IMG/VR virus record: IMGVR_UViG_3300024339_000067
Coordinates: 1 to 26,867 of that record
Strand: one strand, 5' to 3'
From: a virus
Length of the DNA stretch: 26,867 bases
Positions 2,844 to 22,180 of the stretch are shown here, in pieces. Positions within the stretch are counted from its first letter, which is position 1. Every line of letters starts with the position of its first letter. The position numbers and the translations under genes are program-made. The notes under the pieces were generated by a model. It searched no databases. It saw only the letters and a program-made list of their open reading frames with translations, and was not told where the DNA came from.

Positions 2844-5800
2844 ATGCCTAAACAATTACACGAAGTAAAAACGTTCAATAGAGGGACCATTTTAAATGCG
2901 TCCCTCTCTGACATCCCAGAAGAAGCTGCTACGCACTCTAAGAACATAGATGGAGCGAAGGGTAATGGGAGATTAGTATCAATAAATACCGACAGAACGT
3001 TAAAGACAACATCAAATGCTATATCAGATGCTTTTTTACTTGGTAATGAAAACTCTGATATGGTAGTACTTACTGATCAATCAACTGTGGGAATAGTACA
3101 TGATCTGTATGATGGTGATATTGATGGAGCAGTAGATACATTATTGACCCTTCCTGATCCTGCTCAGAAGATGTCTGCTGTGGTACGTAACGATATTGCT
3201 TATATAGGTATGGGCAAAGAAGTAAGTCCTAAGTGGGTTGGTACTCCTAAGTACACGCAGTTTAGTAATACATCTGTCGGCAATATATGTGTAGATTCAG
3301 AAGTAAATAACAACTCTTTATTACCTTCATTGGACAAGATAGTATCGTTTACTGAAACGACAGATTGGTTGGCTGCTATTCATGTTGGTGGAACAGAGAT
3401 GTATAAGTTTGCAGTTAGTGCCACAGATACACTTGCTGCTACAGTAACAGGATTTACTAATATTAGGTCAATATGTAAGGGTCCTGCTGGGTTCTTTTTC
3501 TTATTAGAAAAACTACCGGGGTCATTTGTTATCCGTAAGATATACGATGGTACTGGTGCTACATTTGGTGATATAGCTAGTACATGGATACTCCCTATTG
3601 CGTCTGGCATACCTACAGGGGTAGAATACTCTGACATTATAGTACCACAAGATGGTGCTGACAACTTCTTATGGGTAGCATGTCATGGGACAGATTTTGT
3701 TCCAGCAATCACGAATGAATTTCTATTTAATTTTGATACTACAAGTGATGTATTTGATAATGTAATTACGTTATCTAGTATAACTCCAAAGCAAGAAGGT
3801 GGTGTTGCTCCGGGTGATTGGGCGAGATATGAATCAACTGGTGTAGAGATTGAAGATGAATATGGTCCGGGAGATTGGCAGTTAAATTGGGAAGATATAA
3901 TTGCGACTGACACTCCTTTTTCAAAAACTATTAGGTTTTCATTAACTGATTGTGGTGCTGGTTATGCTGGTTGGTATTGTCAGATAGCCGATCAATTAGT
4001 TAATCAAGATAATGGTCAATATGACGTTACAATCTATCCTGTTATGGTTGAACTATATGGGACTCTCAGTTATCATACTAGATTAGGTTGTTTGTTTGTT
4101 ATAGCAGAGGCTGAGGCACTTAATCATATAGGTACTCATTATAGTGTCAGTACTAACTTTGAAGATTTATTAAGTATACACAATGTATTCGTAAAGAATG
4201 TAAGTGGCTTAAAGTTATTCTTAGCAAGGAATAAAATAGTAAATAGATATACAACCTCTATTGTAGTGGGAAATGCTGATGGGTCAGACAACACGATGGG
4301 AGTCATAGCTGGTAACACTTCTCATGGATTTTCTAACGTAGGTGTCTGGAACTATGACACTACTCCATTACTAAGTATACCTTATCTTAACTCGGGTTGG
4401 GGTGGTTACGCTTCATTAGCTGATGGTTTCGCTGATAACACAGCTCCTACAGATGAGTATGATTCTACTAATATATCTGTCGGAGTTGGTAATAGTGCCA
4501 ATCCTTCTGATTTCAGTGCTAGTGGGACTGATTCGTATTTTTATAAGATAGCCCTTGTTTATGATGGTTATCAAGAGTCACCATTAACACAAGGATTAGG
4601 TGTTGTACCAGCTACAAGTGCAAATACTAAGGATGTCACACTAACTATAAGTGATATCACTAAACTTGATCCACGTATAACACATATAAGCGTCTATAGA
4701 GCCTCTGGTACGTTTGCATCAGCAGAAGATAGTTCTTATGAACTAATTAAATCTGTCAGTATGACTGATACTGGATGGACAAGTGGATATGCTTATGCAT
4801 TTGTAGACGATAAAGTAACTAATGTATATGGATCATATGAAGCAATAAATGGTATATCAGAAGAGCTTGATAGGACTATTGTTAATTATACTGTATCGAC
4901 AGATTTAAATGGTTTCTTATTCGTAGGTGATGCTATGATAATTGATACCTCAGAAGATGCTAGTAATTACATATTCAGAAGTAAAGCTGGTAAATATAGT
5001 ATCTTTGATTGGTCTAATGACTACTTAGTGCTTCCAGAGAAACCAATAGCACTATCATCATACTTAGGAAGGTTGTTCGCATTTACTAGTAATACGATGT
5101 ATCGAATTAACCCAGATAATCTATATATAGAAGATAGCTATGTAATAGGAGAATTATATGGAGAGAAGGCTGTTATTTCTAACGATTATGGTATGTGTTT
5201 CGCTACTAATACTGGTATCTATTTATATGACGGTAAAAGTCTTAGCCCTATAAGTAAGCCTATTGATAGGGCCCCTGATGGGGACACTACTAAAATGGGT
5301 TGGTTAGATGTACATAAAAGAGAGGTAAAAATAGCTTTTGATGTACAGCGTAAGGCTTTCTATGTCTACTTTAAACCTGTATTTTATCTGACGAATGACT
5401 TTATACCATTGTTTTCAGGATCAGGTAATGACGATATGGTTGTTATCCCTGAATCAATAAGAAATTACTCTGGTTCTAATAAAACAGCTTACGAGATAAA
5501 AGTTATGGCAGGGGCAACTCAAGCTACTGGTAATATATCATTTTCTGGACAACCTAGTGGTAGTGACACAATAGTACTAAATGGGATTACATTTACATTT
5601 AGAGCTGGGGCATCGACTATTGCAACAGATATAAGCATACAAGGAAATCTGTCAGATACTTTAGTAGAGGCTGCAAGTGTTTATAATCTGATAACAACTG
5701 GTGCTGTTAGTTTAGCTACGGCTTCATCTGATGCGACTAGATTGTTACTTACCTATGATACAGATAGCTACAAAGGTAACTCATACAAGTTAGATGCTAG

Positions 5801-6515
5801 TGGTTGTTCAGTGGGAACAGCTAGTGGTGCTTATCTTACAGGTGGTGTATCAGACCTTTATAAGATATCTACTGATGGTGGTTCTAGCTATGATGATAAC
5901 AGTGGTGCAGGATACAGAACAAGTGAGATATCATCTGGTATAGTAGGAGATTTAAGGATAGTATTTGGAGCTGATAATGGACATACAGTAGATGACAATT
6001 GGGCATTTACAATATATGTGTCAGACCCTAATATATGGGTATACTCATTAAACGAGCAGAGATGGGACTTATGGGGCACATACGATCTATCTAATGTATT
6101 AGTAACCCCAAAGAGAGGTCTACCTGTTTTAGTAGATTCTACTGGTATAATCAAAGAAATAACTGGTCAAGAAGATACTTACAGGGAATGGCTATGGGAG
6201 TCCAAAGTATTCGATATGGGTGCTGGTAGTGTACAAAAGAGGTTGAAGTCATTGTACTTCCCTAATATAGTTGGCGAAGCCTCATTGAATACAAATTTAA
6301 AGGTTAAAGGTGGTGAAATACCAACATCCCTTTCAACCCTTACATTAGCAACAACTACTACAACTGGTAAGTATTCTATAGCAGGCGCTAATAGAGTCGC
6401 TAGATATGCACAGGTAGTTATTGATTATATAAGTGGTAGTGTAACAGATGCTAATATGTTTGGTCATTACACTGACTACATTGGTCTGGTATATCGTTTA
6501 AAGGCTCTTAGATAA
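2844..6515 (+). CDS. Large tail/nozzle protein (beta-propeller-like stabilisation protein)
   Basis: 1223 residues, beginning after a short TAGGAAC spacer. The first 850 residues have repeating beta-strand blades with aromatic and Asp/Gly turns, e.g. around 720-800 (SSYLGRLFAFTSNTMYRINP, then MCFATNTGIYLYDGKSLSPI). This pattern is typical of phage nozzle/head-tail stabilisation proteins of podoviruses (T7 gp12, P22 gp10 and the crAss-like stabilisation protein). Residues about 896-1003 form a separate module with SGSDTIVLNGITFTFRAG and repeated Ala/Ser/Thr turns, a domain I recall from other phage tail proteins. The C-terminus (about 1066-1223) returns to beta structure. It is expected to form the tail tube/nozzle through which DNA and internal proteins pass. 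Assignment to a specific family is by pattern, not search. Confidence 0.65.
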   Translation: MPKQLHEVKTFNRGTILNASLSDIPEEAATHSKNIDGAKGNGRLVSINTDRTLKTTSNAISDAFLLGNENSDMVVLTDQSTVGIVHDLYDGDIDGAVDTLLTLPDPAQKMSAVVRNDIAYIGMGKEVSPKWVGTPKYTQFSNTSVGNICVDSEVNNNSLLPSLDKIVSFTETTDWLAAIHVGGTEMYKFAVSATDTLAATVTGFTNIRSICKGPAGFFFLLEKLPGSFVIRKIYDGTGATFGDIASTWILPIASGIPTGVEYSDIIVPQDGADNFLWVACHGTDFVPAITNEFLFNFDTTSDVFDNVITLSSITPKQEGGVAPGDWARYESTGVEIEDEYGPGDWQLNWEDIIATDTPFSKTIRFSLTDCGAGYAGWYCQIADQLVNQDNGQYDVTIYPVMVELYGTLSYHTRLGCLFVIAEAEALNHIGTHYSVSTNFEDLLSIHNVFVKNVSGLKLFLARNKIVNRYTTSIVVGNADGSDNTMGVIAGNTSHGFSNVGVWNYDTTPLLSIPYLNSGWGGYASLADGFADNTAPTDEYDSTNISVGVGNSANPSDFSASGTDSYFYKIALVYDGYQESPLTQGLGVVPATSANTKDVTLTISDITKLDPRITHISVYRASGTFASAEDSSYELIKSVSMTDTGWTSGYAYAFVDDKVTNVYGSYEAINGISEELDRTIVNYTVSTDLNGFLFVGDAMIIDTSEDASNYIFRSKAGKYSIFDWSNDYLVLPEKPIALSSYLGRLFAFTSNTMYRINPDNLYIEDSYVIGELYGEKAVISNDYGMCFATNTGIYLYDGKSLSPISKPIDRAPDGDTTKMGWLDVHKREVKIAFDVQRKAFYVYFKPVFYLTNDFIPLFSGSGNDDMVVIPESIRNYSGSNKTAYEIKVMAGATQATGNISFSGQPSGSDTIVLNGITFTFRAGASTIATDISIQGNLSDTLVEAASVYNLITTGAVSLATASSDATRLLLTYDTDSYKGNSYKLDASGCSVGTASGAYLTGGVSDLYKISTDGGSSYDDNSGAGYRTSEISSGIVGDLRIVFGADNGHTVDDNWAFTIYVSDPNIWVYSLNEQRWDLWGTYDLSNVLVTPKRGLPVLVDSTGIIKEITGQEDTYREWLWESKVFDMGAGSVQKRLKSLYFPNIVGEASLNTNLKVKGGEIPTSLSTLTLATTTTTGKYSIAGANRVARYAQVVIDYISGSVTDANMFGHYTDYIGLVYRLKALR

Positions 6516-6730
6516 TGATTAGTAAGAAGAGAGCTCCACACACACCAGATACAGATATGTTACGTATAGTACAACAGATTTATGATGACCTCAATGAACT
6601 AATAAATGCTGTAAATCAGTTCACAAGTGTTGGTAATGAAGGTCGTGGAAAGCCGGGAAACATAAGGGTCACGGATAAGGGTTTAGAATATAGAGACAAA
6701 ACAGGATGGCATCGTGTATCAGATGCATAA
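6515..6730 (+). CDS. Small virion-associated protein
   Basis: 71 residues. The first half is helical (MLRIVQQIYDDLNELINAVN, heptad-like), followed by a compact GKPGNIRV and YRDKTGWHRV ending. Short proteins with a helix plus a 'GxxGdirv ... GW' tail are common near phage tail fibre and nozzle genes and are often trimeric connectors; this is a memory-based comparison. Its ATG overlaps the stop of the 1223-residue protein by one base, implying coupled expression. Its TAA is in phase with the next gene (see findings). Confidence 0.6.
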   Translation: MISKKRAPHTPDTDMLRIVQQIYDDLNELINAVNQFTSVGNEGRGKPGNIRVTDKGLEYRDKTGWHRVSDA

Positions 6731-6739
6731 GGAGGTTAT

Positions 6740-7258
6740 ATGTCATTAGGAGCAATACTACAAGGAGTTGGAGCTGCTGGGAGTTTATTTGGAGCTTTCA
6801 ATCAAGGTCGTAAGTCCTTTCAAGGTGTAAACATGGCAGGACTTAGAGGCGATCTAAGTGACATGAAAAGGTTAGGACAAGGGTTCACTGATATAGGTAG
6901 TGACCAGAACACACAACTACGTAGTCTGATCATGAGTATGGCAGCCAATGGTGCTGCACAAGGTAATATGCTTAATCAGCGTAATATAGCCCAAGGTGGA
7001 GGCTTAAGTGGTATAGCCAACGCTAACAACCTAGCTAATGTTAATAGAGCCCAGAATCAAGGCTCACAGAACTTTTTAGGAGCATTCCAACAGAATCAAG
7101 GCTTAGGTGCAAGTCTGCTTAGTAGATACGGAGAGAACATGGCACAAGCTAGAATCAGTAATACTGCTATGCGTAATCAAGATAGACAGGCAAGTGCAGG
7201 TATGTTTGGTAACTTAGGACTAGGAATGCTAAAGAACTTAATACCACAAGGAGACTAA
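6740..7258 (+). CDS. Gln/Gly/Asn-rich internal virion protein candidate
   Basis: 172 residues starting five bases after a strong AAGGAGG site. The N-terminus is a hydrophobic Gly/Ala helix (LGAILQGVGAAGSLFGAF). The middle is rich in Gln, Asn, Gly and Ala (GGGLSGIANANNLANVN, RAQNQGSQNFLGAFQQNQG), and the end is hydrophobic again. This resembles small inner-core or ejection proteins of podoviruses (e.g. the T7 gp14 type), which insert in the host envelope during DNA entry. It is the first of three small proteins that precede the giant RNA-polymerase-like protein, supporting an internal-virion function. No enzymatic motif is present. Confidence 0.6.
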   Translation: MSLGAILQGVGAAGSLFGAFNQGRKSFQGVNMAGLRGDLSDMKRLGQGFTDIGSDQNTQLRSLIMSMAANGAAQGNMLNQRNIAQGGGLSGIANANNLANVNRAQNQGSQNFLGAFQQNQGLGASLLSRYGENMAQARISNTAMRNQDRQASAGMFGNLGLGMLKNLIPQGD

Positions 7259-7260
7259 CT

Positions 7261-7872
7261 ATGGCTTTAGATTTTGATGTATTAACAGACCAACAGAACA
7301 GATATGGTAATCCAGTACAAGAGCTTGGTGGCTTATTAGGTCAGTTACTTGGTAAAGCAGGTAATAAAATAGAAGGCAGTGAAGGTTATGAGAAACTATT
7401 AGGTGGATTAAAAGAATCTGGTGGGACACTAATGGACTTCTTTAAACATATAGGTGGTAAATTTAAGGGTGGAAATGGTATTGTAGAAACAGATAAACCT
7501 GAGTTCAACGATAATCTATTTAGAAGTAATAACCCTTTTGTTGCTGCCCTTGAAGGCCAGAAAAGAGAAAATACTTATAAACCTCCTTATGGAGCTTACG
7601 GGCAAGTACAACAGTCCAGATTTAACGAGTTTACAGGTGGTGGAAATATTCCAGAACATGGGGCTAATCCTAATTCTAATGCTGGTCCTTTTGGGACACC
7701 TGAAGATATGTTATCAACTTTACAACCAGTTGGTGACTCACCTCCTTCCTCTCCAACTACAGGAGAAGACCCAACAAGTTTCTTAGAAATGCTTTCTAGG
7801 TTACAAGCTGGTAATCAAGGTGGTGGTCAGATTTTTGGTACAGCTCCTTATCAATCTCAACCTAACTACTAA
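7261..7872 (+). CDS. Low-complexity internal virion protein candidate
   Basis: 203 residues with an AAGGAG site seven bases upstream. Residues 20-70 are Gly/Leu/Lys-rich (QELGGLLGQLLGKAGNK, GGKFKGGNG). The rest is Pro/Gly/Asn/Ser-rich and probably disordered (PYGAYGQVQQ, GEDPTSFLEML). No known domain is recognised. Its place between two Gly/Ala-rich proteins and upstream of the giant protein suggests a virion-internal or ejection role. The reading frame is supported by third-position AT bias and tight spacing; the alternative frame at 7538-7786 is a shadow. Confidence 0.6.
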   Translation: MALDFDVLTDQQNRYGNPVQELGGLLGQLLGKAGNKIEGSEGYEKLLGGLKESGGTLMDFFKHIGGKFKGGNGIVETDKPEFNDNLFRSNNPFVAALEGQKRENTYKPPYGAYGQVQQSRFNEFTGGGNIPEHGANPNSNAGPFGTPEDMLSTLQPVGDSPPSSPTTGEDPTSFLEMLSRLQAGNQGGGQIFGTAPYQSQPNY

Positions 7873-7881
7873 GGAGATATT

Positions 7882-8934
7882 ATGCCATTAAACTTTCCTA
7901 ACCAACAAAACTTCTTAGCTCAGTCATTACTGAATATGCCAGCTCAGTTCCAACAGACTGAGTCTGATATAGCACGTAAGAAGGCACAGATACTCTCTGG
8001 CTTAGAAGAGAAGATGTTAGCAATGACTACATCTGATGAAGCCAATGTATATCCTTCAAGGGACGAATGGTTCGCTGCTTATAGACGTAAGTCTAATGAG
8101 ATGGGCGTACAGAATGCAGCTCCTAGTGATATACTAGGTATGTATGATGCGTATTCACAGGAACATACACGACAGAAGGTAGATAAGCTGAACAAGTATA
8201 TGTATGATAATCGTGCTGAGAAACCAAAGAAGATAACTAAGGCTCTAAATAATGATCCTGCTTTCCAAGAATGGTTTGGCAGTATCTCCCCTGAGATGCA
8301 GATGGGTGTTATGCAGAATACTGGATATGATCCCTATACTGAAAATAGTAAGGGGCTATTAGGCTCTTCTTTAGCGGTTCCTATAGGTGTAGGTGGATAC
8401 TATGGTGGTAAGTATGCTTTGAACAAGTTCAAGGATGCCAGATTAAACACACTTAAAACATCCCCTGAGTTTGCTACAGCAGAAGAAGCATTGGCTAATG
8501 CACAGAAGAAACTAGACAACGTTAAACCAAAATCTAAAGCAGCTACTAAAAGAGGTTATGCTAATACTGTTAAGAATGCTAAAGCTAGACTTGCAGAGAT
8601 GGAAGCAGGAGCTAGTGGTTTCGGTAAAGCAAGTACTATATTAAAGAGTAAAGGTGCTGCCTTTGCTGCACCATTTGCAGGTAAAACAGTAGGTGAGTTC
8701 GTAGGTGGTGAAGCTGGTGGTATAGCTGGTCAAGCAGCTGGTGCAGGTTACTTAGGTGCTCGTACTGGTAAGTCCTTTATGAAGTTCCTAGCGGGTAGGT
8801 TCCCACAGATAGCAGCTAAAGCAGGTGCTACAGCAATGTTAGACTCCCCCGGTGTCCCAATAATGGACGTGGTAGGGTTAGGTATCGCTGCTAAAGATAT
8901 ATATGATGCTTATCAAGACTTTCAAAATCTATAA
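7882..8934 (+). CDS. Internal virion / ejection protein candidate with Gly/Ala-rich membrane-active tail
   Basis: 350 residues after a clear AAGGAGATATT leader. Residues 1-150 are polar and helical (ARKKAQILSGLEEKMLAM; YSQEHTRQKVDKLNKYMYD). Residues about 160-180 are Gly-rich and hydrophobic (LLGSSLAVPIGVGGYYGGKY). Residues about 190-245 form a Lys/Ala-rich coiled-coil region. The C-terminal third is Ala/Gly-rich (FVGGEAGGIAGQAAGAGYLG) and could insert in membranes. Helical ejection proteins with such tails are typical of podovirus head cores. It immediately precedes the giant protein, with which it may be packaged and injected. Function is inferred from composition and position. Confidence 0.6.
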   Translation: MPLNFPNQQNFLAQSLLNMPAQFQQTESDIARKKAQILSGLEEKMLAMTTSDEANVYPSRDEWFAAYRRKSNEMGVQNAAPSDILGMYDAYSQEHTRQKVDKLNKYMYDNRAEKPKKITKALNNDPAFQEWFGSISPEMQMGVMQNTGYDPYTENSKGLLGSSLAVPIGVGGYYGGKYALNKFKDARLNTLKTSPEFATAEEALANAQKKLDNVKPKSKAATKRGYANTVKNAKARLAEMEAGASGFGKASTILKSKGAAFAAPFAGKTVGEFVGGEAGGIAGQAAGAGYLGARTGKSFMKFLAGRFPQIAAKAGATAMLDSPGVPIMDVVGLGIAAKDIYDAYQDFQNL

Positions 8935-8947: not shown

Positions 8948-11900
8948 ATGAGCCCTTTCAATGCGGTTCTCCCAGAAGACCAAATACGCTCACAAATAGA
9001 AGCGTATAAAAGAAACCCGAAAGCATTCACACCAAGGATGCTTTCTTTTTTACAACAACAAGCAGATGCAAGTAATGTACCGTTTGATGATGGTGCATTT
9101 GATATAAGTGATAGTATCCAACAAGCTGTTGCAGGTGTAGTAGAGGGTTTCACAACTATATCAATCAAGGATCAACCTACTAATGAATACGAAGCTATTA
9201 TTAGGAATGTCGGTCATTTGGTCGGTTTCGCACCGGGCATACTTGCAGGACCAGCAAAGCTGGCAGGAGCAAGTTCTAAGACAATAGCTAAGATAGCAGC
9301 TCTAGGTGAAGCTAGTATACCAATGCGTGGTGCTAAGTTTGCTACGGGTAAAGCTAAGTCATTAGTAACCCCTGCTGTACAGAGAGCTCTAAAGGGTAGA
9401 CTAGCTACTAGTAAGATGGCTACGGACTTCTTAAAGTCTGGTAGAGTAGCTCATATGGCAGAAGGTGCATTCCATTTAGGTACTGCTTCAGCTATATCTT
9501 CATGGAAGGGTGGCATAGAGGAAATGGCTCATAGCCTCGGTTCTGGTGCCGTATTTGGTGGTGCCTTTAGGGCTATAGGTAACTTGGCATTAACAGGCGA
9601 CAAAACGGCAGATGTGGCTATAAGAACTGTAGCAGGTAGTATGTTCCAAGGGCTACAAAGTACCCTACAAGGCGATACAACCCCTACACAGGTGTATAAC
9701 TACCTAATGGGTGCTTACTTCGGTGGTAAGGAAACTAATTGGAAAGAAGCAGCTACCAACAAGTTCGTAGTGGACATGCGTGAGAAGGCTACTAATGATC
9801 CTGTATTCAGAGCTAAGATGGACCCAAGGGATATACCAGAGTTCTTTGAGAAGACTCCTGAACTACAAACAATGATAATGAAGAGAGCTCATGATACTTG
9901 GGGTACACGTAGCAAGGTGCTTCAAAGAGTTCTATATGATATAGTAGATAAACTTGGTGTTGAATTTGCAGCGGGTAAGTCAGAAGAACAATACGTTCCA
10001 GAGAACTATAAAGCCACAGGTGAGATTACCAAAGAAGGTAATAAGATATATCGTTTAAGTGAAGAGTATGTTAAAGCGTTCGACTATTTCGGTGTTAGTG
10101 GTGGAGCTACAGGTGCTGATACAGCATTTAATAGGATAGGTAAAGAGTTAAATATGCCAGTCCTTAACTATTCATTTGAGGGTAATGCTCATAACGCTAG
10201 AAAAGCAGGTAGCCTTGTAAGGATACTTACACAAACAGAATTAGAAGCAGCAGATAAAGCTCTTGGTAAGGCTAATGCAACCTTGGGTAGGCATTTCAAT
10301 GCTGACATGGACAACACCTTTAGTATAAACCTCCTAAGAAGAAACTATTCAATAGTTAAATCTGCTGATACGATATTTGCAGTGGGCACTCTATATAAAA
10401 AGGGTAAAGCAAGAGTAGCCAGTGGTGGTACAGGTTGGGGTGTACAGATGGCTATAGATATGCAGAAGCCAGTACGTTTTTTTGACCAAAGAGCGAACAA
10501 GTGGTTACAATTTGACAAGAACTTAGGTGACTTTGTAGAGATGTCTAAACCTCCTAAACTTACGCCAAGGTTTGGTGGTATTGGTTCTCGTGACCTCCAA
10601 GCTAATGGTGAGAAGGCTATCCGAGATTTAATGGAAAAAGCTTCTACAGAGCCTAAATCAATTAAGCCATCTAAAAGTACCACTACTGAAAGAAACGTCC
10701 GTGATGACACCGCTAAGGCTCTCAGATTGGAGATTATAGCTGAGAATAGGGCTGCATATGAGAAAGCTCTGAATCCTGTGGATCACCCATATAAAGTAAA
10801 AAAGGGTAAGTCTACTAAGATACGTAAGGGTGGTACTGATATAGTCCCTGCTTGGGTAGATCATGATAAGAAAATAATACATCTTGACCCTGAAGAGTTA
10901 GCAAGAAAGTTTGAAGATAAGGCATGGACTAAGCCTAAAGTAAAGGGAGTTAAAGCTCTATCTGAGAATGAGTTTAATACTTTAGATGAATGGGTAGACT
11001 TTGTAATGTTCCATGAGTTGTCTCATATAGAAAATAGACGGAATCCCGGTGAGACTCAGGCAGACTATGAGAATAGGATGAATGACAATGCCCTTACAAA
11101 GATGGACATAAAGAAGCAATTAAAAGCATTAGATCGTGAAGAAGCTATCTTAAAGTTAGATAGAACCACAGAAGATATGAATAATGACACACCCTTACCA
11201 GAGAATGAACCCGGAATAGAATATAACAGGAATCTAGGTAAGAAGTATATAGGATTTGTTAAAAGGTTTATGATGCCTCTAGTAGAAGATGTACCCTTTG
11301 AGAACAAAGTAAATAAGATGAATGAGATTGGTGACTTCGTCTATAAAGAAGTTATTGACAAGCTACGTGTTGGCACAACAGACAACAGATCATATGAAGT
11401 GGTAGATGCCATTAAAGAGAAGTATGACTTAGTACTTGAGCAAGAAGCAGCAGGACAACTACGACAATGGATGACATCTATGAATACTGGGGTTAATATG
11501 CGAATGCTTACTGTGGGTACCACTACTAATTATAAAATAAAGTTTATGAATGAGAAGAACCCCACTACTAAGGCTGGTAACAGGAAGATGCTTAGAGAAC
11601 CTAAAAGGGTGATAGAAGAGGTATGGGAGAATAACGGTGGAGAAGGTTCAAACCTGTCATTGCTGGATCATGTAACAGTGAAAGATGAGAACGGTAGGCT
11701 CAAGGACATATCAGTTTCTGAATATAGAGAGAATGGTGGATTCTTATTTGGTAGAATGGGTTATGAGACTGTTATAGATGGGAATGGCAATGAATACCAA
11801 AGAGCTGTAAACTGGACTCCTGAACATTATAACGTTAAACTAGCTGAATGGATCAATCAGATGGATAAAGCTGGTTACTTCAATTATGGCGGCCGAAGTG

Positions 11901-14900
11901 ATAAAGATCAATTGTACTTCGTTAAGTATCATCCTAAAGCCAGAGACTACAAGCCTTGGGTTAAAACGTTGAAAGCAGATATGCTTAAAGCTGGTGTCTT
12001 AAAGGAATACGAAGCTCTAAGGGATATGTATCTTAAGAAGTTCACTAATGCTGATGCAGAGACACATGATAAAGCCTTTGTTAGTACTGTACTCTATGAA
12101 CTAGAGAACAATGGTATGGAATATTCATCAGAGAACGTAAAAGCACTCCTTGGACCGGGATTCATCAAAGATGCTATACAACAGAACAAAAGACAGGCTA
12201 TCTGGTTTACTAATAGTTGGAAAGCTGATAAGAAATATATCAATAGCCTATTAGGACGTGGTGAGGATGATAACTTTAGGTACATTATAACACCTACAAT
12301 GAAGGATAAATTCAATCCAAATGAATTTATAGCTAAAAGTACTGAAAGAGAAGAACATAATGATGGTGGAGCCTTAATCACAGAAAAGCTAGCTAGAGCG
12401 TTGAACCTTGATGGTGGTTTCCCTGAGAGTGGGCAAGTAAAGACCTTTGATGTAGACCCTAATGCAGAACTTGGAGCTCTATTGAACAAGGGTATGTACC
12501 ATATAGTCACTCCTGAAGGTGCCAAAGCTATGGATGCAGCTGGTATTGACATTATATTTACTGATACAGTATCCAAACAAATGGGTAAACGTAAGATTAC
12601 TGAGATGAGTCTTGGTGAGAACAATGAAATGATACTAAAAGGTGGGGAACAATACGAAATAGACCCCGGTAATATCAGATATAACTACAGTGTAAAACAA
12701 GATAGTCACTTCTTTGATGCAGGACAATTCCCTAAACAGGCTACTGTTAGTGTAAATGAAGGGGGTTATGCACCATTTAGTCCTGAGTTAGTAAAAGAGT
12801 TCAAAGAAACAGCCCTACAAAGGACTATGCAAGGCTCTGAAGAGAGTAATGCTGTGCTCGATGAGTACATTGTTAATCCAACTAATAAGAATATATCCAA
12901 AGTAGTCAAGAATATGAGTGATATCTCATTATTAAGGGTTGCAGAGATGTTACTAGCACCGGGACATGAGAATCTGTCTCATCAGTTGTACAGAGAGATG
13001 CTTAAAGTAGAACGTGACACTAATCAGGATGACGTTAATGAGGGTTTGATACGTGAAGAAGATGCTAATACGAGTATAGACGTTATAACAGAGTTTGATA
13101 CAGCCGTTGATAGGATGACATCTGCCTCAATGAGAACAAAAGGGCATAGTCTGTCTGTATTCCTACATAAGCATGTAAATGATTACAGAGAACAAGTCCT
13201 GAGTAACTACTTCGTTAATAGAATTAGCAAACCTAAGTTCATCAATTCAGGTGCCTCTAGGATTAGAAACTATGATATGTGGCTACAAAAGAAGTTCCCT
13301 GAACTAAATACTGATGATAGCTTGTTTATGCTAGGTGAGAGGTATAGAGACATGCCATTTAAACATAGTATAAAAGGTCTCAGAGCAAGGACTCTGGGTG
13401 AGTTCTGGGATAAGTATAACGATCCATCTCTAAAGAAACTAAGACCTGAAATGGAGAAGTACTTGAACGCATTGGTTATACGTGTACCAATTAGTGCTAG
13501 ATCAGCTTTAACTAAACAGATATTTCATGGGTTTACCACTATAAATGATCATGGGGTTGTCTTACACAGTAGAACTATGAGTAGAGTTGATGGTGCTGAC
13601 CTTGATGGTGATAAAATACAGTTCTTCTTTGGTAATGATAAAGAGGGGTTAAAGAACTCTACTATAGATGCTTTTGAAGCTAATAAGAATGAGTTCATGG
13701 TATATCGTAATGATAAAGACTTTGTTATATCACAAGAGGAATACAACTCTAAATCTGATGTAGCTAAGAAAGAGTGGCACCCATTCCTTGAGGGCACTAA
13801 AGACAGACGTATTATGGTTGGACCCAAAAGAGAGAATACTTATCGTGACATACTTACTACTGTACCAGAGAAGGGTACCGAAGATGTGATGACAAGTCCA
13901 ATAACCAAATGGATGCCTCTTATGCGTACACAGATATCAGCTGCTGCTGTGGATGGACGTAATATGCTTGGTCCTGCTGTAGTAAACAAACAGATATTAG
14001 AAGCTACTCATACTACTATGCTTAAGAAGGGTGGTAGAGATACATTTACTATCACACGTAAAACTGGTAGAGATCAAACAACAGAGGGGGACTATAAGTG
14101 GGCTAGATACGCAAAAGATGGTTATGAAGTCTCAAGCCAAGGGGATAAACGATTTAGTGCTTTTCATGCTAAATTAAATAGCGGGGAAACTATTGAAGCG
14201 GCTTATCAACGATTAAAAGGCTCTGGTAAAGGTAAACCATCTATACATAAAAACTTTAATTATTGGGATACATATTTAGGGTTATGGAGGCAATGGGCTA
14301 AAGAAAACCCAACTCTTCTTTCGGAATTAGGGAGAAAGGCAGAAGGAAAAACACTAACAGATAAATTTGCTAATACTAAGAATAATCAGGCTCGTGCTTT
14401 AGCTACAATATTAGGTGGTGCAGTGAAGACAGATGTCCCTGAAATGGAGACCCTTAGTGTCCTTATAGAGCCACGTACAGAGCCTGAATGGCTACAGTAC
14501 CAACGTGAACTAATGGCTGCTCAAATGGCATTTGGTTCTGACCCTATGGATGTATTCGGATTGAAATCAAGAGATGAATGGGCTGATCTTGCATGGGATG
14601 CTTTCTTTAGAGTGAAGACCATAAGAGACTTAGATGGCAATACTAGAGACAAGGTAGTCCTTGGGCCTCATGAAAAGAAACGTGGCTTATATGGTACAGC
14701 TCGTAAGACTAACAATGCTTTGTATGGTCGTAATAATAAAACCAAAAGGAAACATACCGCTATCGAAAGGAATGTACTTCTTGAAGAAGGAGTAAGGAAT
14801 GTTAGTGAAGAAGAGAGTGGCAGTCCTTTGTTTGATATAGGTAGAGCAGTATTCTCTATGGACTTCAGTGATAACATTATAAGAAGGCTTGATTCAAAGA

Positions 14901-17900
14901 AACTGGTTAATAAGACAGCTGAGTATCAGAAAGCACTAGAAGAACTTGATCCTATCAGATTAGGTCTAAATAGAAAGAGCTTAAAGTTCGATGTACCAGA
15001 GCTTACTAAGGTTGCTATTGAGTATAAAATATTCGATAGAGGCGAGATAGTAGCCATAGCTAGTAATGATGTAAAGTTTAAGAAGTTTGTTAAAGAGGCT
15101 TACCCTAAGAATGCAGAGAGTCTCCTTAAAAGACATACTACTAAGGAAGAACGACTTGTACTATTAGATAGAGCACGTAGAGAAGCCAATGACTTCATTA
15201 GTAAGCATATTACTAATATAAACACTACTGTACTACTTAAGAAACTATATGATGCCTCTGAGGACGGTTTATCACGGTTATCTATGATACATGAGTTCGT
15301 AGAAGATATGAAACATAATAGTTACCTCAATAAGATTGAACGAGATCAACTTAAAGGTGCTATAGAAGAAGTACTTGATATGTCTAAAGAATCTTATCCA
15401 GAGTGGACTAAAGCTTCCCTAGAAGGTGAAGCTAAAGAAGAACGATCAAGCATACTGGACCAACAAGAGATAGACCAGAAGATACGTGACTTTAGAAGGA
15501 ATGCTAATCTGACGGATATAGAAAACAAAGCGTTAGACTACCTCATGCTAGGGTCACTTAATAAGGGTGAACTTGAACTAATAGCACGATTAGAGGCCAT
15601 GCCAGAGCAAACCCAAGCTATAAGTGATGCTAAGTATCTTGCTAAGGGTGCTGCTATGAGAACAAGTATGACTAAGCTTGGTTATGATAGTACTGCTATA
15701 CCAGCTAAGAGTGTAGAAGAGTTTATTGGTGGATACAAGGAGTTTGCGAATGATTCATTTACTGATAATCTGTCTGTAAAAAAAGGTGAAGAGGATAAGA
15801 TTGCTAATAAGGTGGCTAATACTACTCCTTCATACATTACACCAGATTCTATTGATAACGATGTAATGATAAAGCATATCACTGGTATGGAAGGCATTGT
15901 TAAGCCTGAAGGTACTGTAGAAATACCTAAGCATATGCAAAGTGCTATGACAGAGCTTATAGATAACGTCAGATATTATGGTGAATCATTTGTTAAAGGG
16001 TTCCCTGATGTAGTAGCTGGTATACTTGGTAAAGAGTATAGAGCTATGAACTTTGAGGATGTTACTATACTTAATGACTACTTCAAAGATATACGAAGAG
16101 GTTCATTCTGGCAGAGGTTCTTTAAAGAGGATACCGCAGAGCTTAAAAAGCGTTATTATAACCTGTTTCCTGAAGCAGTAGATAAAGAGCTATCAAAGTA
16201 TAATATGTTTGTACAGAATGCTAGAGCTGAGATACTTACTAAAGAAGGTACCTTACGTACTGCTAATATAATCAAACCGGGAAACATTATTGTAGCCGTT
16301 CAGGATTGGATTGGTAAGATGCAAGATCAATCAATCAATATGAGTGAGGGTATTATAGCTGACTTAGGAAAAGAGTTCCAGTTCCTATCTTCATTCCCAG
16401 AAGGTGAACCCCTACGTCAGATGGCTATACAACAGATGCATCTAAACTTACGTCAGACTATCTTTGCTAGTGAATCAAAGGATATGAAACAGAAACAGAT
16501 GGAGATAGGTGCACATCAAAAGAGATATGATGATACTTCTTTAAAGTATGGTTATGATAAACTAAAGAATAAACGATTTACTCTTACACTTGAGAATGAA
16601 GAAGGTGAAATGGAACGTGGTGAATATACTGGTGAGTTCGTAGTAGATAGAATTGTTAAAATTTATGCTAAATTCAATGAGAAGATGTATAAGCTACTCA
16701 ATGGTGACGATAAAGGTATTGCTGATTATATATTAACTGCATCTGATCCAGAGACAGGAGATGTACGAGTAGACTGGAATAAATTTATAAAGGATATGAT
16801 GAGTGACTTCTATCTGGGTAAGCCAATCAATACTAATCTGGGAGTCATAGGATTACACAGAATTGGGAAGAGTTCTCTTATTGATCAGGCTACTGATGTA
16901 GAGCTAAAGAAAGAGTTACGTAATATAAAAATACAAAAGGAAGTTGGCAGGTTCCCTGCTAATGGTTATTGGCCTCATTTGATTTTGGAAAAGGGGGAAA
17001 TAACTAAATTAATGAGTCAGAAGATAAAAGAACTGAATGAATCTACTGAGCTTACAGGTAAAGAGAAACGAAAAGAATACCAGAAGCTTGTATATAAGAA
17101 CAAATCCCTTACAGGGGATTGGTCCTTTGATGATATGGATTTCTACTCAAGTGCTGATGCATTAGAAGCTATGAAAGAGGTTGGTGATAAGAAGGTTATA
17201 TCCGATGAAAAGATGAAGTTATTTAATGCTACTGAACGTATAGGTAACATGATGACACGGGAGTATAACTTAGAAGGTTTTTCAACAGATGCTAGTGCTT
17301 ATGAAACCTATGTACGTAATGTTGTTAATGTATACTTTAGACAGATGTCACAGATACTTTCTCGTTATATGGTCAATGACTTTACCAAACGTAATGTACA
17401 CACTATGGGTACTCAACTAACTAATAAATGGTCTAACTTCCTTAAGCTATACATACAGGGTGCTCTTGGTAACGCAGAACACATACCAGAGTACATGCTC
17501 AATGACCCTGATATGAAACTAAAGGGTACCCCTTATAAGGCATGGTCTGATAGTCAGGTCAAGAAGCGAATGAATGGTATACGTCAGAAGCTTGGTATAG
17601 GTGATAAGAATCTGCCTGAAGAATTACAAGGTATAGACTACCATCAGTTACGTCATTGGTCTAATATAGAGGCTCAATACGAGCTTGCTACTTTACTTGC
17701 ACATCCTAAGACAGCAGTAGCTAATGTATTCGGTGGTGTCATGCATACAGTAGAATCTACAGGGCTGTCTAATCTGATGAGAGCTAGAGATATAGAATGG
17801 TTGAGTACACATATCAACCCTAATTGGACAAAAAGAGAAGATATATGGGACTTTGTAGTTGGACATGGAATACTACCAGATTTCATGAAGTATGAGATAG

Positions 17901-18820
17901 GACTACATCCTACACTACGCAAGGAACGTAACAAAGAGTTTATGACTGAATTGATAGATAAGTTCAGCTCTAAGACTCCTGATAAGAAGTCATTATTAGA
18001 ACTACAGAAGAAGTATGGAATATCTGATTATATCGTTAATGTAGCTGCTAAGTTTATGAGTGTTCCTGAGAAACATCTTAGACAGGATGCTTTTATGGCT
18101 CACTATGTACAGGCATGGAAACACTTTGGTGGTGCTATTAAAGACCCTAATCATCCATTCCTTATTGAGATAGCTAAAAAGGGTGTGAAAGCTACGCAGT
18201 TTTTATACTCAGCTCCATTTAGACCGTTGTTTGCAAGGAGTGCTCTGGGTAAGGTGATGACACGTTTTCAGTTGTGGTCATGGAACTCAGTAGCCTTTCG
18301 TAATAACATCAATGCAGAGGCACGTAGATATGGACTTCTTCCGGGATCAGAACAGCATAAAAGGTTTATACGTACAGCTCAGATAGATATGTTTGTATTT
18401 GCCTTGGCTAATGTGTTTGCTTATTCTTTATTTGAACAGACATTACCAGCTCCTTGGAATTGGTTACAGGATACATCAGATTGGGTATTCGGAGATGAGA
18501 AGGAACGTGACAGAGCGTTCTTTGGCTCATGGCCTACAGGGTTAGCCCCATTGCAGATGGTAACACCTCCTGTTGCAAGACTACTTCCGGGAAGTATAAA
18601 GGCACTTATAGATGACGATTGGAGTAAGCTAGCCAAGTATCAAGTATACACTATGCTTCCATTTGGGAGGATTGTGAGAGATTTAGCAGGTCCCGGTAAT
18701 CTGATAGAAAGCCCAATGAGGCTACTTGAGAAGACTACTGGTTTCCCATTAGTACAGCTACAACGTGAGGTATCTCAAGCAAGAAAAGAACGTGAAGAAA
18801 AGAAAGCACTGACCCCCTAA
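8948..18820 (+). CDS. Giant virion polyprotein with double-psi beta-barrel RNA polymerase core (putative virion RNAP)
   Basis: 3290 residues; ATG preceded by GAGGTG. Modules in order: hydrophobic/Ala-Gly N-terminal segments (about 89-122 and 172-215); a SLOG-like nucleotide-binding domain (about 375-570: SGGATGAD, GGTGWGVQMA, FGGIGSRD); a metallopeptidase-like HELSH at 689-693; a region around 1231-1263 (KGGEQYEIDPGNIR ... GQFPKQ) that may be the beta-like barrel; and the beta'-like catalytic barrel with RVPISAR, VVLHSR and DLDGD at 1551-1555. The last matches the NADFDGD metal-binding motif of cellular beta' and the DxDGD of single-chain RNAPs (crAss-like gp66, YonO, QDE-1). Then follow an inserted domain (about 1715-1822), a long helical region, and a C-terminus with a hydrophobic segment (about 3146-3175). 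Known virion RNAPs are injected with DNA and transcribe early genes; that role here is inference. It was not tested whether polymerase activity is intact. Confidence 0.8.
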   Translation: MSPFNAVLPEDQIRSQIEAYKRNPKAFTPRMLSFLQQQADASNVPFDDGAFDISDSIQQAVAGVVEGFTTISIKDQPTNEYEAIIRNVGHLVGFAPGILAGPAKLAGASSKTIAKIAALGEASIPMRGAKFATGKAKSLVTPAVQRALKGRLATSKMATDFLKSGRVAHMAEGAFHLGTASAISSWKGGIEEMAHSLGSGAVFGGAFRAIGNLALTGDKTADVAIRTVAGSMFQGLQSTLQGDTTPTQVYNYLMGAYFGGKETNWKEAATNKFVVDMREKATNDPVFRAKMDPRDIPEFFEKTPELQTMIMKRAHDTWGTRSKVLQRVLYDIVDKLGVEFAAGKSEEQYVPENYKATGEITKEGNKIYRLSEEYVKAFDYFGVSGGATGADTAFNRIGKELNMPVLNYSFEGNAHNARKAGSLVRILTQTELEAADKALGKANATLGRHFNADMDNTFSINLLRRNYSIVKSADTIFAVGTLYKKGKARVASGGTGWGVQMAIDMQKPVRFFDQRANKWLQFDKNLGDFVEMSKPPKLTPRFGGIGSRDLQANGEKAIRDLMEKASTEPKSIKPSKSTTTERNVRDDTAKALRLEIIAENRAAYEKALNPVDHPYKVKKGKSTKIRKGGTDIVPAWVDHDKKIIHLDPEELARKFEDKAWTKPKVKGVKALSENEFNTLDEWVDFVMFHELSHIENRRNPGETQADYENRMNDNALTKMDIKKQLKALDREEAILKLDRTTEDMNNDTPLPENEPGIEYNRNLGKKYIGFVKRFMMPLVEDVPFENKVNKMNEIGDFVYKEVIDKLRVGTTDNRSYEVVDAIKEKYDLVLEQEAAGQLRQWMTSMNTGVNMRMLTVGTTTNYKIKFMNEKNPTTKAGNRKMLREPKRVIEEVWENNGGEGSNLSLLDHVTVKDENGRLKDISVSEYRENGGFLFGRMGYETVIDGNGNEYQRAVNWTPEHYNVKLAEWINQMDKAGYFNYGGRSDKDQLYFVKYHPKARDYKPWVKTLKADMLKAGVLKEYEALRDMYLKKFTNADAETHDKAFVSTVLYELENNGMEYSSENVKALLGPGFIKDAIQQNKRQAIWFTNSWKADKKYINSLLGRGEDDNFRYIITPTMKDKFNPNEFIAKSTEREEHNDGGALITEKLARALNLDGGFPESGQVKTFDVDPNAELGALLNKGMYHIVTPEGAKAMDAAGIDIIFTDTVSKQMGKRKITEMSLGENNEMILKGGEQYEIDPGNIRYNYSVKQDSHFFDAGQFPKQATVSVNEGGYAPFSPELVKEFKETALQRTMQGSEESNAVLDEYIVNPTNKNISKVVKNMSDISLLRVAEMLLAPGHENLSHQLYREMLKVERDTNQDDVNEGLIREEDANTSIDVITEFDTAVDRMTSASMRTKGHSLSVFLHKHVNDYREQVLSNYFVNRISKPKFINSGASRIRNYDMWLQKKFPELNTDDSLFMLGERYRDMPFKHSIKGLRARTLGEFWDKYNDPSLKKLRPEMEKYLNALVIRVPISARSALTKQIFHGFTTINDHGVVLHSRTMSRVDGADLDGDKIQFFFGNDKEGLKNSTIDAFEANKNEFMVYRNDKDFVISQEEYNSKSDVAKKEWHPFLEGTKDRRIMVGPKRENTYRDILTTVPEKGTEDVMTSPITKWMPLMRTQISAAAVDGRNMLGPAVVNKQILEATHTTMLKKGGRDTFTITRKTGRDQTTEGDYKWARYAKDGYEVSSQGDKRFSAFHAKLNSGETIEAAYQRLKGSGKGKPSIHKNFNYWDTYLGLWRQWAKENPTLLSELGRKAEGKTLTDKFANTKNNQARALATILGGAVKTDVPEMETLSVLIEPRTEPEWLQYQRELMAAQMAFGSDPMDVFGLKSRDEWADLAWDAFFRVKTIRDLDGNTRDKVVLGPHEKKRGLYGTARKTNNALYGRNNKTKRKHTAIERNVLLEEGVRNVSEEESGSPLFDIGRAVFSMDFSDNIIRRLDSKKLVNKTAEYQKALEELDPIRLGLNRKSLKFDVPELTKVAIEYKIFDRGEIVAIASNDVKFKKFVKEAYPKNAESLLKRHTTKEERLVLLDRARREANDFISKHITNINTTVLLKKLYDASEDGLSRLSMIHEFVEDMKHNSYLNKIERDQLKGAIEEVLDMSKESYPEWTKASLEGEAKEERSSILDQQEIDQKIRDFRRNANLTDIENKALDYLMLGSLNKGELELIARLEAMPEQTQAISDAKYLAKGAAMRTSMTKLGYDSTAIPAKSVEEFIGGYKEFANDSFTDNLSVKKGEEDKIANKVANTTPSYITPDSIDNDVMIKHITGMEGIVKPEGTVEIPKHMQSAMTELIDNVRYYGESFVKGFPDVVAGILGKEYRAMNFEDVTILNDYFKDIRRGSFWQRFFKEDTAELKKRYYNLFPEAVDKELSKYNMFVQNARAEILTKEGTLRTANIIKPGNIIVAVQDWIGKMQDQSINMSEGIIADLGKEFQFLSSFPEGEPLRQMAIQQMHLNLRQTIFASESKDMKQKQMEIGAHQKRYDDTSLKYGYDKLKNKRFTLTLENEEGEMERGEYTGEFVVDRIVKIYAKFNEKMYKLLNGDDKGIADYILTASDPETGDVRVDWNKFIKDMMSDFYLGKPINTNLGVIGLHRIGKSSLIDQATDVELKKELRNIKIQKEVGRFPANGYWPHLILEKGEITKLMSQKIKELNESTELTGKEKRKEYQKLVYKNKSLTGDWSFDDMDFYSSADALEAMKEVGDKKVISDEKMKLFNATERIGNMMTREYNLEGFSTDASAYETYVRNVVNVYFRQMSQILSRYMVNDFTKRNVHTMGTQLTNKWSNFLKLYIQGALGNAEHIPEYMLNDPDMKLKGTPYKAWSDSQVKKRMNGIRQKLGIGDKNLPEELQGIDYHQLRHWSNIEAQYELATLLAHPKTAVANVFGGVMHTVESTGLSNLMRARDIEWLSTHINPNWTKREDIWDFVVGHGILPDFMKYEIGLHPTLRKERNKEFMTELIDKFSSKTPDKKSLLELQKKYGISDYIVNVAAKFMSVPEKHLRQDAFMAHYVQAWKHFGGAIKDPNHPFLIEIAKKGVKATQFLYSAPFRPLFARSALGKVMTRFQLWSWNSVAFRNNINAEARRYGLLPGSEQHKRFIRTAQIDMFVFALANVFAYSLFEQTLPAPWNWLQDTSDWVFGDEKERDRAFFGSWPTGLAPLQMVTPPVARLLPGSIKALIDDDWSKLAKYQVYTMLPFGRIVRDLAGPGNLIESPMRLLEKTTGFPLVQLQREVSQARKEREEKKALTP

Positions 18821-18853
18821 AATGGTACACGTTTTACCCACTAAGGTGAGCAA

Positions 18854-18933
18854 AATAGCCCCGTAGAGGCGATATCTTTTGTTAGAGGTATGTTACCCTG
18901 CCTGAATCATAAAAGGGGCTAGGATTGGCTATT
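18854..18933. ncRNA. Structured RNA candidate at the convergent junction
   Basis: Immediately after the giant gene, AGCCCC (18857-18862) can pair with GGGGCT (18915-18920), enclosing AGGC/GCCT (18867-18870 with 18900-18903) and GGTA-TGT-TACC (18887-18897). A competing helix, AATAGCC (18854-18860) with GGCTATT (18927-18933), shares the 5' strand, so the two closing stems exclude each other. No open frame covers it. It may be the 3' end or terminator region of the late transcript. There is no poly-T tract, so it is not a standard intrinsic terminator. Confidence 0.4.
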
Positions 18934-18984
18934 ATGGAAAATTGCAGTTATTTTATATTCTCTTAAATAATTAGTATTTACAAC

Positions 18985-19008
18985 GCAAGTTCCCCGAAGG
19001 GAACCTGC
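18985..19008 (-). terminator. C(UUCG)G tetraloop hairpin at the 3' end of the leftward block
   Basis: On the minus strand the stem GTTCCC-TTCG-GGGAAC, extended by GCA/TGC with one mismatch, carries the ultrastable C(UUCG)G tetraloop. It lies downstream of all leftward genes and faces the late block. CUUCGG hairpins are known in intergenic positions of phage T4 transcripts, where they help end or protect mRNAs. There is no U-tract after it, so it may act as a 3' protective structure or factor-assisted terminator. Confidence 0.5.
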
Positions 19009-19035
19009 ATTGCTACTAACCTAACAAGAAGGTAA

Positions 19036-19101
19036 TGACCAGAGGAGGAAGCAGGAATCGAACCTACCTAAACAGCCCAACCGTGATACCCCCAATGGTC
19101 A
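19036..19101 (-). ncRNA. tRNA-like element lacking an anticodon arm
   Basis: Read leftward, this 66-nt element closes with TGACCA/TGGTCA, a 2x2 mismatch, then GGGGG/CCTCC, giving a long acceptor-like helix. Inside are a small D-arm-like hairpin (ACGG-TTGGG-CTGT) and a textbook T-arm: GTAGG-TTCGATT-CCTGC (19051-19067) with the canonical seven-base TTCGATT loop. Only about 21 bases separate the acceptor strand from the T-stem, too few for both a D-arm and an anticodon arm. It could be a tRNA relic, a tRNA mimic bound by processing enzymes, or a 3' end signal. Confidence 0.5.
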
Positions 19102-19102
19102 A

Positions 19103-19131
19103 TAGTGTTTAAATCTCTAAAAAAAACACTA
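19103..19131. other. Hairpin after the last leftward gene
   Basis: TAGTGTTT (19103-19110) and AAACACTA (19124-19131) form an 8-bp AT-rich stem with a 13-base loop, just past the stop of the last leftward gene. It could help separate mRNA from the tRNA-like element. The T-run on the minus strand falls in the stem and loop, not after it, so it is not a classical terminator. Confidence 0.3.
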
Positions 19132-19140
19132 CTTCAATGT

Positions 19141-19326
19141 TTATGCACTAGGAGTTATATCGGGAGATGATGGTTCATCTACTCCTAGGAAGTTTGTTAG
19201 TACTTGTGATGCTTTTGATGTGTCTTCTTCTTTAGTTTGAGCACAGTATTTTACTCCTTTACTCATCAACCATAAGATGTCGACATAGTCTTCTGGTGTT
19301 AATTCGATTTTGATTGATTTACTCAT
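19141..19326 (-). CDS. Small hypothetical acidic protein
   Basis: 61 residues from the ATG at 19326, which overlaps the TGA of the upstream gene (ATGA); an in-frame TTG 15 bases earlier is less likely. The sequence starts MSKSIKIELTPEDYVDILWLM, followed by a helical region with one Cys and a Pro/Ser/Asp-rich tail (DEPSSPDITPSA). No domain is recognised. It is the last protein-coding gene of the leftward unit. The overlap with its neighbour supports translation. Confidence 0.6.
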   Translation of the reverse strand: MSKSIKIELTPEDYVDILWLMSKGVKYCAQTKEEDTSKASQVLTNFLGVDEPSSPDITPSA

Positions 19327-19763
19327 TTCAGGAACCCCCAACTTTTAGCTATTTTTATTGGATTAAACATGTCTTTGGTCATTTCTTCAGCCATCTTATC
19401 AAAACACACCTTGCATTGAACTCTTCGTTTATGACCAAAGAATCGAGAACCACAATCAACACAATTATTTAAGTAGTTACCATTTTCATGTGGAAAGTCT
19501 TCTACCCAATTCTTAGGGTCCATCTCAAGAGGTGTTATAGGATCACAATCATCATCAATTAGAGTGTATGTAACTCTATATTTAGCGATATTGTATTTCT
19601 TTTTATCCTTGAATATACCATGACAGTTTGCATGTCTCGCATGAGAAACACTTTCGAAGTCGTATTCATCACAACATGCTCTACTATAACTTCCTGTAGG
19701 TTCACCTGTTTCTTTGTCGATTATGCGAAAAACCACTAAAGGTTTTTTTTCATTTGGTTTCAT
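19323..19763 (-). CDS. Zinc-finger-containing hypothetical protein
   Basis: 146 residues. The N-terminal half (VVFRIIDKETGEPTGSYSRA) begins with a beta-strand region containing an E-T-G turn, then a segment with clustered Cys/His (CCDEYDF, HARHANCHG). The C-terminal part has a zinc-ribbon-like set (NNCVDCGSRFF ... VQCKVC, about 111-131). It is probably a nucleic-acid- or protein-binding early protein; no enzymatic motif is seen. Its start overlaps the TGA of the 46-residue zinc-ribbon gene upstream (ATGA), so the two are likely coupled. Confidence 0.6.
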   Translation of the reverse strand: MKPNEKKPLVVFRIIDKETGEPTGSYSRACCDEYDFESVSHARHANCHGIFKDKKKYNIAKYRVTYTLIDDDCDPITPLEMDPKNWVEDFPHENGNYLNNCVDCGSRFFGHKRRVQCKVCFDKMAEEMTKDMFNPIKIAKSWGFLK

Positions 19764-19900
19764 TCTATGTCTCCTTGTAAAAGTTCATCTTGTATTTGTT
19801 GTTCGTACATTATGTTTTCGTAGTAGGTATCTTTCCCAGTGCATATAACACAGGCTTGGTCATCTGATATGCTTGACCCACATATTAAACAGGTAGCCAT
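19760..19900 (-). CDS. 46-residue zinc-ribbon mini-protein
   Basis: This short gene fills the gap between its neighbours. It begins MATCLICGSS and contains CxxC at 4-7 and CVIC at 17-20, the four ligands of a treble-clef or rubredoxin-knuckle-type zinc site, followed by an acidic/Gln-rich helix (YEQQIQDELLQGDIE). The ATG overlaps the TAA of the upstream gene by one base, and its TGA overlaps the next ATG (ATGA), strong evidence for a translated, coupled gene. Function unknown. Confidence 0.7.
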   Translation of the reverse strand: MATCLICGSSISDDQACVICTGKDTYYENIMYEQQIQDELLQGDIE

Positions 19901-20184
19901 TACATCCCTACCCATATTAGGTTATCCTTTAACCATTTAGGTATACAAATTGTACTACCAATATGCTTAGTCTGTGATCGAGGTATCCACGTTTGAATCC
20001 TTACATCTCTAATAAGAAATGCTTTTTTAGTGCTATGTACTATTTTACCTCTAATCTGAACGAAAGGACTTGGTTTCCATTTATCTTTGTATGGATATCC
20101 TGAAAAGGATAATCCTTCTTGGTCTACTTGTCCATCATACAATGAATCCATTGCGTCTTGTGCGTGATCAAATATATCACTCAT
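19900..20184 (-). CDS. Hypothetical protein, beta-rich
   Basis: 94 residues. An acidic N-terminus (MSDIFDHAQDAMDSLYDGQ) is followed by a beta-rich core (VQIRGKIVHSTKKAFLIRD, then IQTWIPRSQTKHIG) that looks like a small OB- or SH3-like barrel, and a C-terminal IPKWLKDNLIW. Short phage proteins with an 'I..T.KA.L......WIP.SQ' pattern are frequent, and I believe they are of unknown function. It overlaps both neighbours by one base (TAATG), so it belongs to the leftward operon. Confidence 0.6.
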   Translation of the reverse strand: MSDIFDHAQDAMDSLYDGQVDQEGLSFSGYPYKDKWKPSPFVQIRGKIVHSTKKAFLIRDVRIQTWIPRSQTKHIGSTICIPKWLKDNLIWVGM

Positions 20185-20630: not shown

Positions 20631-20632
20631 TG

Positions 20633-20896
20633 TTATGGTATTATATTATCTTGTATATAATCATCAATACGTTGAAGCATTTTTTTTAGTGCTTTAGGAC
20701 GATGAATAATGTTACTTGACATAGCACTATCTTCTCTCCACCAAATACTGTAAAGTTTCCCATTCTTAAATTTAACAGTTGCTGATACATTTGCGTCTGT
20801 AAACTTTACTTCTGTACTTATAATTGTCGTTTGTTTTGGTTCCTTAAGTTTATCATGAGTATCTTGTAGAACGATATCTTTCTTATTTCCAAACAT
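20633..20896 (-). CDS. Hypothetical protein
   Basis: 87 residues with an AAGGAAG site before the ATG. The first 30 residues are polar; the middle is a beta-hairpin-like stretch (ISTEVKFTDANVSATVKFKNG) followed by KLYSIWW and a C-terminal helix (ALKKMLQRIDDYIQDN). I recognise no family. It lies one to two bases from genes on both sides, directly downstream of the RNA ligase, and may be co-regulated with it. Confidence 0.55.
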   Translation of the reverse strand: MFGNKKDIVLQDTHDKLKEPKQTTIISTEVKFTDANVSATVKFKNGKLYSIWWREDSAMSSNIIHRPKALKKMLQRIDDYIQDNIIP

Positions 20897-20897
20897 G

Positions 20898-21800: not shown

Positions 21801-21830
21801 TATCCCTCCTTTTGTTAGTTAATTATTATG

Positions 21831-21903: not shown

Positions 21904-21911
21904 TTAGTGTA

Positions 21912-22021: not shown

Positions 22022-22029
22022 AAACTCGT

Positions 22030-22173: not shown

Positions 22174-22180
22174 TAGTTTA

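Follow-up and report, generated by a model that had tools for sequence, protein, structure and literature searches.

This locus raises the question of whether the giant protein encoded in the window (the whole stretch of viral DNA analysed, 26,867 nucleotides, IMG/VR record IMGVR_UViG_3300024339_000067) contains a genuine RNA polymerase (RNAP), and what the phage would use it for. The gene (8948..18820, + strand, ATG to TAA) is the last of the late/virion operon and encodes 3290 amino acids. The predicted metal-binding motif DLDGD, residues 1551-1555 (13598..13612, +), is the only DxDxD in the protein; by composition, about 0.06 DxDGD motifs would be expected in a protein of 3290 residues. RVPISAR (residues 1512-1518) and VVLHSR (1537-1542) lie 39 and 14 residues upstream of D1551, in the order, and at about the spacing, of what we take to be their E. 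coli beta' counterparts, NRAPTLHR, LHP and NADFDGD. The sequence-only reading, which had noticed this arrangement, was correct in its reading frame, coordinates and residue numbers. The DLDGD motif with its two upstream elements is beyond chance, since at least 153 homologous loci exist and all three aspartates are present in each of 73 copies not chosen by the motif. The 3290-residue protein has no Pfam match and no PDB sequence match, and PHROGs recognises two accessory domains only (residues 373-520, SLOG/DprA-like, and 1716-1822, phrog_9995).

An AF2 model of residues 950-2149, based on 65 sequences, has a pLDDT of 84 and a pTM of 0.82. Its best PDB match in Foldseek is 6VR4, the virion RNAP gp66 of the crAss-like phage phi14:2 (E 2.9e-8), followed by QDE-1 (1.4e-5); the size and divergence of the chains keep the TM-scores low (0.29 for gp66). 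VIA-align gave Z-scores of 15.2 for QDE-1 (481 residues, 4.8 Å), 13.9 for plant RDR2, 12.7 for P74-26 gp62, 12.4 for gp66 (668 residues, 4.5 Å) and 10.7 for P23-45 gp64. These five matches all span model residues 1 to about 1026 (residues 950-1975 of the protein), the model being aligned over its residues 1-1028 to residues 540-1186 of QDE-1 and 617-1804 of gp66; cellular beta'-type chains reach a Z-score of about 9, over the second half of the model only. By fold match, two DPBB domains are predicted in one chain, as in gp66 and QDE-1. The structure-model check suggested by the sequence-only reading thus returned two-barrel matches, not a model lacking the barrels. No nearest branch is claimed from structure, since the Z-scores of QDE-1, RDR2, gp62 and gp66 differ by only about 3.

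The predicted single-chain two-barrel RNAP module, delimited by the AF2 model, Foldseek and VIA-align, occupies residues 950-1975, approximately (11795..14872, +). The predicted DPBB-B core comprises residues 1139-1265 (12362..12742, +) and was placed using column counts, the strands of the model and collinearity with crAss-like RNAPs. Where readable, D1139, G1140 (the DG at 1139-1140) and Q1264 are invariant in the 65-row alignment, whose rows were selected for the DxDGD motif but not for any other column. The predicted strands of the first barrel region carry K1165 (12440-12442), K1181 (12488-12490) and K1210 (12575-12577, all on the + strand), each conserved in 55 of 55 sequences. The predicted DPBB-A catalytic block, R-V-P ... 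GADLDGDK (residues 1512-1562; 13481..13633, +), aligns to YRIPNQGQSS...GSDFDIDK of gp66, and DLDGD is located in the loop preceding model strand 607-613. Further downstream, the pattern P....S..A..GR..LG.AV (residues 1657-1693; 13916..14026, +) forms a candidate bridge helix, corresponding to model helices 708-722 and 725-744; it has a weak hhalign match to DPLYQ..GGKSGVGITAN of gp66, not significant alone. The structural match continues to about residue 1975. An SDP motif (residues 1864-1866; 14537..14545, +) lies downstream of the candidate bridge helix, with D1865 present in 62 of 62 sequences. Against crAss-like profiles, the region after DxDxD matches weakly and not significantly; bridge helix and trigger loop are therefore candidates placed from the structural match and their location rather than from sequence similarity. 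The module also houses a mobile domain, phrog_9995 (residues 1716-1822; 14093..14413, +; E 2.6e-28), inserted between two model strands downstream of the candidate bridge helix. Outside the giant-protein family, ORFs matching phrog_9995 occur in jumbo and N4-like phages; within it, the insertion is common to one relative only (L062) among the matches listed.

A profile of the family was compared by hhalign with a profile of 13 crAss-like RNAPs, gp66 included. The alignment scores 62.9 (P 1.1e-5) over 426 collinear columns that start at the KR motif, take in the lysine region and extend to DxDxD; the highest control scores were 21.6 (reversed), 25.9 (column-shuffled) and 28.6 (block-shuffled). 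The score is still 50.8 with the DxDxD part omitted, and removal of the window-specific insertions gives a P of 3e-6. As judged from these profiles, the similarity of the family to the Crassvirales RNAPs is significant. It appears with the crAss family profile only: gp66, gp64 and gp96, each compared as a single sequence, gave no significant score. A PDB sequence search with the family profile gave no credible match. The sequence-only reading had attributed DxDGD to gp66 and regarded DFDID as degenerate, and here it was mistaken. The gp66 block is GSDFDIDK, the other 12 crAss-like RNAPs have DFDID, DFDVD or DYDID, and gp66 is a proven RNAP (PMC10770324, PMC7886860). DFDID is therefore no sign of decay, and the kept glycine of DLDGD alone is no evidence of activity.

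Direct searches of viral contigs with the window protein gave no match. Scanning 2.9 million viral contigs with a degenerate GADxDGDK pattern yielded at least 119 loci, of which at least 75 encode relatives of the window protein, several of them collinear over most of its length; in two pooled virome scans, the RNAP region was found at E<=1e-5 in at least 153 loci. Among the matches listed, the best identity is 31% in the RNAP region, 46-47% in the N-terminal and about 41% in the C-terminal region. Since the search pattern fixed GADxDGDK, its invariance in the first alignment is by construction, and conservation was re-measured. The ASCERTAINMENT bias was avoided by a second search using the upstream motif R-V-P-M-D-S-x-S-G-A only, which produced at least 76 new matches, 73 of them readable through the catalytic motif. 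DLDGD is present in 71 of these, DKDGD in one and DLDAD in one; the three aspartates are kept in 73 of 73 and the glycine in 72 of 73 copies, which include close relatives and do not represent independent events. In the DLDAD copy (L204), alanine replaces the glycine in an otherwise conserved context.

A set of 50,697 phage records gave no tblastn match to the RNAP regions of two relatives or to one C-terminus. The RNAP and C-terminal segments compared with PHROGs and Pfam matched no family there, and bacterial genomes, when scanned, yielded no relative that could point to a host. Structural matches in BFVD include a few unnamed proteins near the family (A0A516LW39, 22% identity, E 7.6e-51); members are deposited in databases, but under no readable name. 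The giant protein is a member of a large, widespread environmental phage family in which we found no cultured or annotated member. The family is apparently undescribed and belongs to uncultured, small-genome, podovirus-like phages.

Outside the RNAP module, the protein has a conserved N-terminal region (residues 1-330; 8948..9937, +), found in at least 81 relatives with up to 47% identity. It is followed by the SLOG/DprA-like domain (residues 373-520; 10064..10507, +; phrog_768, E 2.5e-8); residues 361-565, around this domain and upstream of the polymerase, are matched in at least 21 relative loci, and it is an optional accessory domain. The sequence HELSH (residues 689-693; 11012..11026, +) could be a zincin-like metallopeptidase site; its region has no Pfam match. 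As a family feature, HExxH at residue 689 was rejected, being absent from 12 of 12 relatives checked. At the other end, residues 2095-3290 (15230..18817, +) constitute a conserved helical region, a candidate ejection/membrane part, with 24-42% identity across 61 relatives. Its AF2 model (pLDDT 74.7) has no PDB match at E<0.001. The only structural matches longer than 200 residues are three T7-type core-protein (gp16) entries, with VIA-align Z-scores of 5.0-5.1 over 205-214 residues, below trust level. In hhalign, the score against a gp16 profile did not exceed those of shuffled controls, no tape-measure family matched this C-terminus, and a hydrophobicity scan showed one weak segment, residues 3144-3162.

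Upstream of the giant gene, the window encodes a 1223-residue tail protein and then virion-type proteins of 71, 172, 203 and 350 residues (2844..8934, +). Residues 863-1004 of the tail protein are related to a Rhodobacter phage tail tube protein, and the tail protein is found in contigs of 18 of 30 relatives. The giant gene closes the + strand operon; RNA ligase, HNH and primase-helicase genes are on the - strand. The same order is found in a 50-kb relative, G014, where a 1488-residue tail protein and four intermediate proteins precede an RNAP protein of 3058 residues (13045-22221), with convergent - strand genes including a primase-helicase beyond it; genes for TerL, the portal (phrog_156) and the major head protein (phrog_1328) follow farther on. 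Relatives of the G014 portal among the matches listed are from Vibrio, Shewanella, Pseudomonas, Salmonella and uncultured phages, one annotated as P22-like; none of the 15 portal matches listed is from Crassvirales. The nearest matches listed for the TerL of G014 are from Campylobacter, Faecalibacterium and Helicobacter phages. By its portal sequence, read from G014 as the window contains no portal or terminase gene, the lineage is not crAss-like. No T7-type RNAP was found in 23 related contigs, in a search run without a positive control.

Three further features of the window deserve mention. The late virion operon includes a gene (1941-2837, +; phrog_403, E 2.6e-89) for a protein resembling a DNA polymerase exonuclease subunit. 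The RNA ligase gene (20898-21800, -; phrog_548) adjoins two tRNA genes, and the ligase possibly repairs tRNAs cut by host defence. ARAGORN predicts a tRNA at 22098-22173 (-) whose anticodon, TTA, would decode the stop codon TAA; general read-through of TAA is unlikely, since most genes of the window, the giant one included, end in TAA, and the reading of the anticodon loop may be shifted.

We consider it quite likely that residues 950-1975, approximately, form a single-chain DNA-dependent RNAP with two double-psi barrels, of the gp66/QDE-1 kind, that is made late, packed, injected and used to transcribe the early genes. The polymerase itself is genuine and probably active. D1551, D1553 and D1555 of DLDGD would bind the catalytic Mg2+, and a lysine pair of the other barrel would contact the substrate, the best candidates being K1181 and K1210, with K1165. 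The giant protein would be made late, packed in the capsid with other ejection proteins and enter the cell together with the DNA or before it, so that its RNAP could transcribe early genes while phage protein synthesis has yet to begin. Packaging, injection and early transcription are proposed from the fold, the conserved catalytic residues, the position in the late operon and the analogy with phi14:2 gp66, P23-45 gp96 and the crAss001 cargo proteins (PMC10770324, PMC10172136).

A real two-barrel RNAP might instead, in the manner of P23-45 gp64 or YonO, be synthesised in the infected cell for middle or late transcription and do no more than share an ORF with a structural protein. Two-barrel RNAPs outside virions do exist, and P74-26 gp62 and P23-45 gp64 match the model almost as well (Z-scores of 12.7 and 10.7). 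However, in both the window and G014 the gene is the last of a tail/ejection operon and the RNAP shares its chain with long conserved regions on both its N- and C-terminal sides, while the known giant fusions, P23-45 gp96 and the crAss-like RNAPs, are virion proteins (PMC10770324, PMC10172136), making this alternative unlikely. That the fold is catalytically dead and has been retained as a structural or DNA-binding element of the virion is considerably less probable still. Such exaptations are conceivable, and among the best matches listed the flanks are better conserved (46-47% and 41%) than the RNAP region (31%), but the three aspartates are retained in 73 of 73 copies and the three lysines in 55 of 55, whereas identity elsewhere in the module has fallen to about 25-31%. 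Least credible is that the protein is not an RNAP and bears DxDGD by chance or as an acidic motif of another kind: the lack of Pfam and PDB sequence matches for the protein, and of a credible PDB match for the family profile, would fit, but predicted structure, profile comparison and conservation converge on one fold and already contradict it.

The preferred reading of an injected RNAP can be taken further. The C-terminal 1200 residues, approximately, might form a gp16-like envelope channel to which the RNAP is tethered, so that transcription would pull the genome into the cell, in a lineage of small podovirus-like phages whose crAss-type RNAP would be an independent acquisition. We regard this proposal as speculative and rather doubtful; if true, it would make the polymerase and the DNA-ejection machine one covalent unit.

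Injected two-barrel RNAPs are known from crAss-like phages, jumbo phages and P23-45, and the family described here adds a large environmental lineage to the phages with two-barrel RNAPs in virion-type proteins. The virion RNAP of phage N4 has a T7 fold and not a two-barrel one. With the N4 enzyme and other polyvalent proteins, the giant protein shares its predicted character of a giant injected polypeptide combining RNAP and accessory domains (PMC5512222). QDE-1 and plant RDR2, RNAi polymerases with the highest VIA-align Z-scores, differ in being eukaryotic stand-alone enzymes. P23-45 gp64 and P74-26 gp62 share the single-chain two-barrel fold and have a GADYDGD motif, but are stand-alone proteins (gp64 has 616 residues), and gp64 is undetectable in virions (PMC10770324). 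P23-45 gp96, a virion RNAP fused to the tail tape (PMC10770324), likewise has a two-barrel RNAP inside a giant virion protein, with a DFDGD motif; there the RNAP is N-terminal and has no clamp, whereas it is central in the 3290-residue protein, and a profile comparison with the N-terminal 1200 residues of gp96 showed no similarity at the motif.

Phi14:2 gp66 and the Crassvirales RNAPs share with the giant protein the single-chain two-barrel fold, the R-[IV]-P ... G-[AS]-D-x-D block and their nature as large proteins encoded among virion genes. They differ in the motif, DFDID in gp66 versus DLDGD, and the aligned identity is only about 10-14%. The suggestion that the RNAP gene organisation departs from that of crAss-like phages is only partly upheld: the lineage is not crAss-like by its portal, but several crAss-like records have the RNAP within single ORFs of 12-14 kb. 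A giant RNAP fusion is not what distinguishes this lineage, as it already occurs in crAss-like phages and P23-45. Crassvirales genomes are of about 100 kb, whereas the longer contigs of the relatives are mostly about 40-55 kb, so carrying a polymerase of their own is not a strategy of large phages only. Being outside Pfam, PHROGs and the records of cultured phages, genes of this family would pass as hypothetical in virome surveys; their detectable profile similarity to the crAss-like RNAPs helps to link divergent branches of the single-chain RNAPs.
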